This document shows, piece by piece, positions 23,030 through 24,936 of a DNA stretch of 64,000 bases (positions within the stretch are counted from its first letter, which is position 1; every line of letters starts with the position of its first letter). The notes below the pieces were generated by a model that had not been told where the DNA came from, made no database searches, and was given only the letters and a program-made list of their open reading frames with translations. A program made the position numbers and the translations under genes. Origin of the DNA: a virus. The stretch covers positions 62,001-126,000 of IMG/VR virus record IMGVR_UViG_3300032224_000970; one strand, 5' to 3'.

Positions 23030-23396
23030 TTTTATTAATGCAATAAACACCACCAAACAGAATCTCTTCGAGGATCCACAGGCAGATAAGGATTATTCTG
23101 CCTTCATGGTCAATCGTGGTCTGTCGTATTTTCCCGATACGGTTCTATATGCCAATGAGATGAATAGATATCCTTCTTTACCGAAGGAATGGCAATTTTC
23201 GTTTTTCCTAAATACTATATCTAAGAAGAAAAGATTTAGTAAGTGGGCTAAGAAAGACAACGAAACTAAGTCTATTCAACTTGTCAAGGAATACTATGGG
23301 TATTCTACGGAGAAGGCGAAAGAAGCACTATCGGTTCTTTCGCCAGAGCATTTGAACATGATAGAAGAAAAATTATATAAAGGTGGAAAATCATGA
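23016..23396 (+). CDS. 62: Clamp loader small subunit gp62
   Basis: This 126-residue protein completes the gp44/62 loader. [18 protein letters not shown] and [28 protein letters not shown] match the T4 block [47 protein letters not shown] matches T4 YLMAAVPRGKRYGKWAK. It is shorter than T4 gp62 (187). An upstream TTG at 22992 is rejected in favour of ATG 23016. It overlaps regA by ATGA. Confidence 0.9.
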   Translation: [126 protein letters not shown]

Positions 23397-23812
23397 CTGT
23401 TGAAATGATTTATTACGACTGGACGCCAGAGTCCATGCTTGAAGTGACCTTGCCAGAACCAGACAATTTTTTGAAGGTTCGTGAGACACTTACCCGCATC
23501 GGCATCGCATCCAGAAAAGAACAGAAGTTATACCAATCCTGCCATATCCTACATAAGCAGGGAAGGTACTTCATCGTTCACTTTAAGGAACTGTTTGCAC
23601 TAGATGGTAAAGAGTCGAACATCACTTCAGGTGACATTGAACGTAGGAATGCCATCGCTGGCTTATTGCAAGACTGGGATCTATTGAAGATTCTTGTTCC
23701 TGCTAAGGCAGATCCAAAAGCATCTCTATCTCAGATTAAGGTTGTATCCTATAAAGAGAAAGAGGAATGGGAACTTGTTCCTAAATATAACATTGGTAAA
23801 AAGTCTAAATAA
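23393..23812 (+). CDS. regA: Translational repressor RegA
   Basis: This 139-residue protein (T4 RegA 122) is an mRNA-binding repressor of early phage genes. The motifs PDNFLKVRETLTRIGIASRK, LYQSCHILHKQGRYFIVHFKELFALDGK and ERRNAIAGLLQDWDLLKIL match the family closely. It sits directly after gp62 as in T4, in an ATGA overlap. Confidence 0.95.
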   Translation: MTVEMIYYDWTPESMLEVTLPEPDNFLKVRETLTRIGIASRKEQKLYQSCHILHKQGRYFIVHFKELFALDGKESNITSGDIERRNAIAGLLQDWDLLKILVPAKADPKASLSQIKVVSYKEKEEWELVPKYNIGKKSK

Positions 23813-23824
23813 TAGGAAACTGAA

Positions 23825-24013
23825 ATGATTAAACTTGAATTGAGTGTAGATGACGTAAATATGATTCTTCGTACTTTAGGGAAACATCCCTTTGAAGAGG
23901 TTGTTAGACTTATCGAAAATATTAAATCACAGGGAGATCCTCAGGTTGAGGTTCTTGTGAAAAAGATGCAAGAAGAACAGGCAGCTGCACAAGCTGAGTT
24001 GCCACAAGTATAA
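23825..24013 (+). CDS. Small hypothetical protein after regA
   Basis: A 62-residue protein starting MIKLELSVDDVNMILRTLGK with an all-helical prediction and a Gln/Ala-rich end (QEEQAAAQAELPQ). Small genes of this type follow regA in other T4-like phages, and no function is assigned. Its stop codon lies inside the late promoter TATAAATA. Confidence 0.65.
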   Translation: MIKLELSVDDVNMILRTLGKHPFEEVVRLIENIKSQGDPQVEVLVKKMQEEQAAAQAELPQV

Positions 24014-24016
24014 ATA
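24009..24016 (+). promoter_or_regulatory. Perfect T4-type late promoter TATAAATA
   Basis: This is an exact match to the T4 late consensus, overlapping the stop codon of the preceding gene. Transcription would begin at about 24022, exactly where a chain of hairpins begins. Confidence 0.7.
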
Positions 24017-24021
24017 GAATT

Positions 24022-24163
24022 GTCCCATCGGGATGGGAACGTATTGGCTTCACCTTAGGACCGCTAAGAAACGAAGCGTAATAAAGCGGATGCGACGTAC
24101 GGCATCGCTGGATCTCGTAACCAGCAAACCCTCTGTGCTCAATTTTGAGGCAGAGTTTATTTA
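24022..24163 (+). ncRNA. Candidate structured non-coding RNA or leader
   Basis: Five hairpins can be drawn in about 135 bases: TCCCAT/ATGGGA (24023-24038), CTTAG/CTAAG (24054-24068), GATGC/GCATC (24089-24106), GCTGG/CCAGC (24107-24125), and a final compound stem CTCTG..CTCAA/TTGAG..CAGAG (24131-24155) followed by TTTATTTAAT. A perfect late promoter precedes it. No ORF of use occupies it and no tRNA cloverleaf fits. It could be a phage small RNA or the leader of the phasin-like and Hsp20 genes. Confidence 0.5.
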
Positions 24164-24190
24164 ATCAATCTCGCTTAATAGGAGAACTAT

Positions 24191-24415
24191 ATGTTACAAG
24201 CTATCAACACATCAATCGACACCATTTCTGGTGCAAAGACTCAATTCGTTAAGACATTCGTTCAAAACGAAGAAGTCAAAAAACAACTCCAAACTTACAT
24301 CGATGCTCAGCAGTCATTCGCTAAGACTGTTGCTAAGTCCACTGTAGATTTCTTTACTACAGTTGGTACATCAGCAACTTCGTTTGACACTAAAAAAGCA
24401 TTCGTATCTAAGTAA
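24191..24415 (+). CDS. Small helical protein, phasin-like
   Basis: The 74-residue protein is entirely helical (TQFVKTFVQNEEVKKQLQTY, AQQSFAKTVAKSTVDFFTTV). It resembles the amphipathic helix pattern of phasins, which coat polyhydroxyalkanoate granules. The resemblance is in pattern only. SD TAGGAG lies 6 bases upstream. It forms a unit with the Hsp20 gene. Confidence 0.5.
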   Translation: MLQAINTSIDTISGAKTQFVKTFVQNEEVKKQLQTYIDAQQSFAKTVAKSTVDFFTTVGTSATSFDTKKAFVSK

Positions 24416-24426
24416 GGAGAACAATC

Positions 24427-24936
24427 ATGGTCAGTAAATTTCTACCTGATGCTATGCTGCACCCACAATTCAAGGACTTCGAAAAGTTCTTTGTAGGGTT
24501 TGATGATCAATTCACACGTATGGCAAAGTTCCATGAGGATGTTACTAAGAACATTCCTAACTACCCACCATACAATATCAAGAAAAATGATGACAACCAT
24601 TACACCATTGAGATCGCTGTAGCTGGCTTTGGTCAGCAAGACATCGATATTGAAATGGCTGATGGTAAGTTAATCGTTCGTGGTAATGTGAAAACTGAAG
24701 AAGACCAAGACAACTTCTTGTTCAAAGGAATCGCAAATCGTGCCTTCACTCGTTCATTTGTTTTGAATGACGAAGTAGTAGTGAACGATGCTGAGATGCT
24801 CAACGGTATGTTGAAGATCTTCTTGGAACGTCTGATTCCAGAACACAAGCAACCAAAGAAAATCGCTATTAAATCCAAAGGTGAAAAACAACTATTAACC
24901 GAAGGAGAAAAAGATGCGATTGCTGAAACTTTGTAA
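24427..24936 (+). CDS. hsp20: Small heat-shock protein (Hsp20/IbpA family)
   Basis: This 169-residue alpha-crystallin-domain chaperone is common in T4-like cyanophages and relatives. PPYNIKKNDDNHYTIEIAVAGFGQQDIDIEM begins the domain, followed by GKLIVRGNV, FLFKGIANRAFTRSFVLNDEV and the C-terminal NGMLKIFLERLIPE. It likely holds unfolded phage or host proteins during infection. SD AAGGAG is 6 bases upstream. Confidence 0.9.
   Translation: MVSKFLPDAMLHPQFKDFEKFFVGFDDQFTRMAKFHEDVTKNIPNYPPYNIKKNDDNHYTIEIAVAGFGQQDIDIEMADGKLIVRGNVKTEEDQDNFLFKGIANRAFTRSFVLNDEVVVNDAEMLNGMLKIFLERLIPEHKQPKKIAIKSKGEKQLLTEGEKDAIAETL

Follow-up and report, generated by a model that had tools for sequence, protein, structure and literature searches.

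We conclude from sequence comparisons that small heat-shock genes of phages are preceded by what appears to be a ROSE-like leader, joined in the window (the whole 64,000-nucleotide stretch of viral DNA analyzed here) to a new modular RNA. The gap ahead of the chaperone operon in the window is probably the 5′ leader of a late operon, in which a hairpin over the Shine-Dalgarno (SD) sequence would likely act as a thermometer or chaperone switch and the structures at the 5′ end would be protective. The original prediction had offered three candidates for this gap, a phage small RNA, a leader regulating phasin-like and Hsp20 genes, and a RegA target. Among these, the leader fitted best, with conserved hairpins directly before hsp20 or its partner gene, and its “phasin-like” part had to be given up.

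Marine T4-like phages commonly carry small heat-shock genes, and we found no account of how these genes are controlled. In the literature searched, no paper links RNA thermometers or ROSE elements to small heat-shock genes of phages, and the words “thermometer,” “untranslated,” and “upstream” are absent from the text of a paper on cyanophage sHSPs (PMC3827213). If our reading is right, a ROSE-like leader would tie the chaperone output of these phages to water temperature or to protein aggregation.

Leader, promoter, and gap in the window

The 159,683-base virus record that contains the window has its replication genes in a T4-like order up to regA (23393-23812; PF01818), which lies two genes upstream. 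A 62-aa open reading frame (ORF) ends at 24013 and is followed by a gap of exactly 177 nt, which ranks fourth in size among the 83 gaps between retained ORFs. Downstream lie a 74-aa ORF, the first gene of the operon (24191..24415, plus strand), and hsp20, encoding a small heat-shock protein (24427..24936, plus strand; phrog_432). The Hsp20 assignment was borne out by a PF00011 match (E value, 2.9e-18). The 74-aa ORF has no significant match in Pfam, PHROGs, or NCBIfam, and the label “phasin-like” was dropped for that reason.

The late-promoter-like TATAAATA is present at 24009..24016 (plus strand) as an exact match, and we assume from T4 late spacing a transcript start at about 24022. It is the single exact copy in the 64-kb window, with one other copy in the whole 159,683-base record. 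Since shuffled sequences give 3.2 copies per window by chance, the match alone is no evidence of a promoter. Relatives carry TATAAATA or CTAAATA at the same place in the leader, and both the box (TATAAATA or NTAAATA) and its place just before the predicted transcript start are those of a T4-type late promoter. Along similar lines, NATAAATA is given as a cyanophage late promoter in the available part of PMC2984593. In four relatives (L024, L025, L026, and L034), sigma-70-like TTGAC..TATAAT boxes lie upstream of the leader, before or in place of TATAAATA, suggesting that some relatives may transcribe it early as well as late. Upstream of hsp20, one of these contigs (L024:1-2387) carries a row of at least 12 tRNA genes.

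The transcript is predicted to begin with a hairpin, TCCCAT-CGGG-ATGGGA (24023..24038, plus strand); relatives also have GGGATGGGA 5′ of other modules. For 24019-24168, the minimum-energy fold (−45.2 kcal/mol) contains the five consecutive hairpins of the original prediction, and the TTTATTT described behind the last of them is found at 24156..24162 (plus strand), a possible weak intrinsic terminator or single-stranded linker. With a z score of −2.15 and 5 of 200 shuffles folding as well, the region is, by energy alone, only modestly unusual. A simple terminator scan did not list the hairpin before TTTATTT. ARAGORN found no tRNA or tmRNA in the gap, as had been anticipated, and Rfam gave no match there at gathering thresholds. 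The claim that the gap holds no ORF stood only in part, given that a 43-codon ATG frame runs from 24033 to 24164, although in homologue L005 the same ATG meets a stop after three codons. A sixth hairpin, at 24170-24184 over the ribosome-binding site, had been overlooked.

Conservation of the Shine-Dalgarno hairpin

A search of viral contigs with Hsp20 yielded 80 loci. The gaps before the operon in these loci are nearly all structured, but their folds differ. The shared order is a promoter box, often a 5′ hairpin ending in GGGATGGGA, a variable middle, a hairpin, often a T-run, and then ACTCGCTTAATAGGAGAA before the start codon.

The SD hairpin of the window (24170..24184, plus strand) reads CUC-G-CU/UAAU/AGGAG, that is, five pairs and one bulged G (24173) over the SD sequence. 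The SD pairing, with GCT in the opposite arm, was found in 69 of the 76 assessable Hsp20-selected loci, the exceptions being six with CTCGCG instead of CTCGCT and one without the hairpin. Variants in the loop keep the stem, and some lengthen it. Compensatory changes occur in named phages selected by protein (CAC/GTG in S-TIM5 and ATC/GAT in the podovirus HTVC103P), and the hairpin was also read in S-PM2, Syn1, S-CREM1, S-CRM01, S-CAM7, Melnitz, and the Sinorhizobium jumbo phage Phosso. The bulged G is present in all 244 parsed leaders, most of them collected by a pattern containing that G, and it is also present in loci chosen by protein alone. Because the SD itself is constrained, the pairs are mostly invariant and covariation is thin.

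Across phages, this hairpin and the bulged-G hairpin described below stand directly before hsp20 or its upstream partner. A two-hairpin covariance model (R2) matched 16 of 20 whole phage records, several of its members coming from the same phages as these records; the best match was at the hsp20 leader each time, and only two further weak matches appeared across the 20 records. R2 missed Melnitz, S-TIM5, and HTVC103P, in which the SD hairpin was read by eye, as well as HTVC008M.

The isolated phage SD hairpin has a predicted stability of −1.4 kcal/mol at 37°C versus −4.1 for that of Escherichia coli, and the predicted melting temperatures of isolated phage hairpins are 44 to 55°C versus 67°C. 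In full-length folds, in which pseudoknots are unmodelled, the SD hairpin forms in ca. 35 to 55% of the ensemble and competes with pairing to the module; SD exposure in this pseudoknot-free calculation showed no clear rise from 4 to 50°C.

The bulged-G hairpin

The terminal hairpin of the window (24131..24155, plus strand) has a bulged G at 24137, between a U·G wobble and a C-G pair. Of 244 distinct leaders, for the most part gathered with a leader pattern, 234 have such a hairpin. Usually there is U·G or C-G outside the bulge and C-G inside it, while the loops vary (UUCG in 158). The four outer pairs of the stem change on both sides and stay paired in the 23 equal-length leaders; A3 and R2 were built on 23 of 24 such leaders, with one omitted.

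Outside the cyanophages, 122 of 181 leaders have at least four T's in a row after the hairpin; none of the 53 cyanophage leaders does. In the latter group, TAAATA sits 7 to 11 nt before the first (bulged-G) hairpin in 34 of 46 leaders, and 5 more have a TATAAT box just before it (control windows, 0/42). With these boxes in front of it, the hairpin probably forms the start of the mRNA in cyanophages, which supports the promoter of the original prediction and speaks against a primarily terminating role. A plain terminator was rejected as a general explanation, the T-run not being universal. The U-run behind the hairpin in the window's group suggests termination there. In P-HM1 (L412, 130072) and S-SRM01 (L420, 157104), the annotated hsp20 starts lie inside or at the bulged-G hairpin, so these starts have probably been placed too far upstream.

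A double-pseudoknot module

Between the 5′ hairpin and the terminal hairpin lies a module of 82 nt (class A; 24044..24125, plus strand) with four helices, P1 (24048-24051/24073-24076), P2 (24054-24058/24064-24068), P3 (24089-24093/24102-24106), and P4 (24107-24111/24121-24125), and two pseudoknots, PK1 (24077-24080/24094-24097) and PK2 (24086-24088/24116-24118), all on the plus strand. The pseudoknots join the linker with loop 3 and GCX with loop 4. A pattern search together with the Hsp20 loci gave at least 70 distinct class A sequences. In the alignment of 70 (A1), 97.6% of 1,815 cells are paired, and both sides have changed in 195 cells against a shuffle mean of 67, a value that none of 500 shuffles reached. 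The covariation score is 0.291 versus 0.111, and when partners were slid out of register, pairing dropped to 22 to 52%. Both pseudoknots covary; for instance, columns 47/76 hold GC in 33 sequences, UA in 32, and AU in 5. The number of further pair types (22 versus a shuffled mean of 23.7) goes against this trend. RNAalifold, which has no knowledge of pseudoknots, recovered P1, P3, P4, and part of P2. The original prediction had staked itself on covariation among homologues, and this was found in the class A module as well as in the bulged-G hairpin.

The members of A1 were picked by a pattern over columns 9 to 23 plus the 3′ strand of P4, and the counts for P2 and P4 therefore lean toward pairing, while those for P1, P3, and the pseudoknots are independent of it. 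Left out were 29 pattern matches without the expected 3′ end: ca. 19 represent a different RNA, 5 are class A-like (with GCCAG/CTGGC in P4), the end of P4 is altered in 4, and the remaining one is truncated where its contig stops. Pairing of the P2 loop with AAAGCGG was considered and discarded, there being no covariation and GACCAC occurring with both AAAGCGG and AAAGCTG. The different RNA, at ca. 19 loci (L103:101, L109, L107, L155, L195, and others), shares CACCTTAGGACCGCTA with class A and reads ...GGTGCGTGGCCGGCTGCTGGCC...GGATTCGCTACCC...AAAGTGAGCA, before various genes. In Rfam, nothing relevant matched seven loci that carry either this RNA or the class A-like variant. Phage RNAs may share the class A P1/P2 domain as a building block.

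A model of the module (R1) scored 84 to 99 bits in the window, itself a training sequence, and in 13 of the 80 Hsp20 loci, and 26 to 50 bits in 14 more. It matched 4 of the 20 whole phage records, none of them a named phage. The exact 20-base core of the module is absent from the species-genome collection, and within the scope of these searches the module seems restricted to viruses. No family of Rfam 15 matched it at either gathering or lax thresholds. As judged from its alignment, then, the double-pseudoknot module is a new, strongly covarying modular RNA absent from Rfam.

In other homologues, the middle of the leader is occupied by related modules (B, C, and E), by H-type pseudoknots, by stacked modules, or by nothing. 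A scan found H-type pseudoknots in 23 of 203 leaders (shuffle mean, 2.05; maximum, 4). Class C-like modules also occur away from the hsp20 leader (L042:1105-1164 and L054:3546-3638), indicating that modules are separable from the gene. With such exchangeable neighbors, the double-pseudoknot module is a good case in which to study the in-place swapping of structured RNAs.

Occurrence in bacterial genomes

A pattern scan of species genomes turned up 21 stretches, including 8 on hsp20-like genes. Several were close to cyanophage genes or, in metagenome bins, lay next to phage genes. In a betaproteobacterial metagenome bin (L436:1690-1738), a small heat-shock gene with both hairpins lies among bacterial genes; this leader is a possible donor or recipient. 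With R2, the two-hairpin leader was detected ahead of a small heat-shock gene in a single genome (G009, the same bin). Among 120 genomes drawn from the order of G009, there were two matches, G009 itself and a GC-rich one that looks like chance. The two-hairpin combination is thus rare in the bacteria searched, and a bacterial source for it was rejected on this draw. A contig labeled Nonlabens xiamenensis (L432; NZ_RMVE01000006.1; 188,235 bases) has an hsp20 whose product is 65% identical to the protein of cyanophage S-WAM1 and which carries a cyanophage-type leader; the contig may come from a phage whose genome ended up in a bacterial assembly.

Phage Hsp20 proteins

The best NCBIfam model for the Hsp20 of the window is IbpA (117 bits, below the cutoff of 212), and 508 phage records, mostly of cyanophages, match this protein. 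According to the available part of PMC10474464, IbpA represses its own mRNA through the 5′ untranslated region (5′ UTR), which requires Arg93 and an aromatic residue at position 34. The residue matching Arg93 is arginine in all 115 distinct phage Hsp20s (E. coli IbpB has Q), and the one matching Tyr34 is tyrosine, again in 115 of 115 (F in IbpB). The equivalent of Arg97 is also conserved, with Asn at this position in two named phages. At the position of Lys98, where E. coli needs a basic residue, none of the 115 phage proteins has one. Phage Hsp20s share Arg93 and the aromatic residue 34 with self-repressing IbpA and differ from it in the basic residue 98.

Proposed function and alternative explanations

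In the reading that we favor, RNA polymerase would start at about 24022, and the RNA would open with the 5′ hairpin, followed by the double-pseudoknot module, the bulged-G hairpin, the U-tract, and the hairpin that buries the SD. The last of these most likely holds translation of the chaperone operon low and would be opened by heat, or by a bound chaperone leaving for aggregated protein. We infer temperature sensing and chaperone binding because the parts are identical to those of a known system. The 5′ structures most likely protect the leader from RNases and let the SD hairpin fold independently. Like the start at 24022, this role of the module is a proposal; protection or spacing is a guess made because the module is replaceable, and it is the weakest step.

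The closest alternative is that the leader merely stabilizes the mRNA, its 5′-end hairpin and compact folds blocking RNases and the SD hairpin being incidental. The leader begins with a hairpin in both the window's group and the cyanophages, and the middle modules, H-type pseudoknots included, vary in sequence and are all compact. Stabilization leaves unexplained why the SD hairpin and its bulged G, equal to the bacterial ROSE stem, are the most tightly conserved elements, and we consider it unlikely. Nearly the same can be said, with slightly less in its favor, of a separate small RNA running from 24022 to the U-run at ca. 24162, a stable, trans-acting product of ca. 140 nt with hsp20 expressed by read-through only. 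Its own promoter-like box, the T-runs outside the cyanophages, and the class C-like modules found away from hsp20 would agree with this. However, all 53 cyanophage leaders lack the T-run and have the hairpin at the transcript start, the SD hairpin directly behind the bulged-G hairpin is conserved together with it, and a middle exchanged for unrelated folds is ill suited to a fixed target in trans. The small RNA of the original prediction could thus apply to the window's group and not to the cyanophages.

Less probable still is a riboswitch-like role, in which the double-pseudoknot module would form a metabolite-sensing domain that acts on the U-tract terminator or the SD hairpin. Highly conserved unpaired bases (CACCUUAGGACC, AAAGC, and GUAA) and two pseudoknots would befit such a domain, and manA, a candidate riboswitch of T4-like cyanophages, is reported before ibpA in the available part of PMC2864571. 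Yet neighboring phages have other folds in place of the module, or lack it, ahead of the same gene; the terminal hairpin, whose stem varies freely, showed no conserved alternative pairing with it; and no Rfam family matched. Finally, binding of the translational repressor RegA near the start codon has the nearby regA gene in its favor. HTVC103P, Phosso, and S-TIM5 all retain the SD hairpin and have no PF01818 match, so this candidate was set aside as highly improbable.

Beyond the ROSE-like late leader itself, we advance a wider proposal tentatively, with rather less confidence. Members of the Kyanoviridae, together with a podoviral pelagiphage and a jumbo phage of Sinorhizobium, may carry a self-contained chaperone circuit in which an IbpA-type Hsp20, equipped with the RNA-binding arginine, is paired with a ROSE-like leader of its own. 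Late in infection, the circuit would sense heat as well as the aggregation of virion protein. In the window's group, it would contain an exchangeable slot for compact 5′ RNA folds, including the new double-pseudoknot family, which may itself bind a ligand or protein.

Comparison with known RNAs

The leader of T4 gene 32 mRNA contains a pseudoknot that binds gp32; it and the window share pseudoknots in mRNA leaders of T4-type phages and differ in gene and sequence. The manA RNA (RF01745) is described as a pseudoknotted leader RNA of T4-like cyanophages, found before ibpA genes among others (PMC2864571, in part), and it differs from the window module in sequence and fold. Its model had no match in the window's record, and the 3 of 20 phage records above the cutoff had theirs elsewhere than at hsp20, so that an identity with manA was rejected. 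In S-CREM1 (L424), matches to the manA, wcaG, and abiF RNA families are packed among tRNA genes. As far as the excerpts of PMC4477652 and PMC4166951 go, the Synechocystis hsp17 thermometer resembles the window in its small SD hairpin on a small heat-shock gene; it has an internal 1×3 bulge between the start codon and RBS stems instead of a single bulged G with UYGCU (PMC4477652). The lambda cIII element is a known phage thermometer of another kind (PMC4166951, same excerpt).

In the available part of PMC3669281, the defining feature of ROSE-like elements is a U(U/C)GCU that blocks the SD within the 3′-proximal hairpin of sHSP leaders, and the bulged G is strictly conserved according to PMC9450479. 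The window has this arrangement in the 5′ UTR of a small heat-shock operon of which hsp20 is the second gene (in cyanophages, the leader is directly before hsp20), with UCGCU (24171-24175) pairing within 24180-24184 and a bulged G opposite the SD. RF00435 (ROSE) matched 0 of 1 leader, with silent controls, and RF01832 (ROSE_2) had 0 of 15 over the cutoff, none at a phage hsp20 leader, and 1 of 14 control genomes over it. Given these results, we use the term ROSE-like and do not claim family membership.

The E. coli ibpA leader, used as a control, gave a 100-bit ROSE_2 match and reads CUCGCUGAUUUCAGGAG. Like the window, it has the CUC-bulged G-CU/AGGAG stem, identical in both, before a small heat-shock gene, and further hairpins upstream. 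The window hairpin is shorter and weaker (five pairs, not six), its upstream hairpins are different, it stands behind a late-phage promoter-like box, and it has no Rfam model match. Two-hairpin ROSE-like versions are described in Pseudomonas (PMC3669281, as available). In these ibpA thermometers, as in the cyanophage leaders, a hairpin I precedes the 3′-proximal U(U/C)GCU hairpin on the SD. Compared with what that part of the source describes, the phage hairpin I has a conserved bulged G, and the window adds a 5′ hairpin and the double-pseudoknot module.
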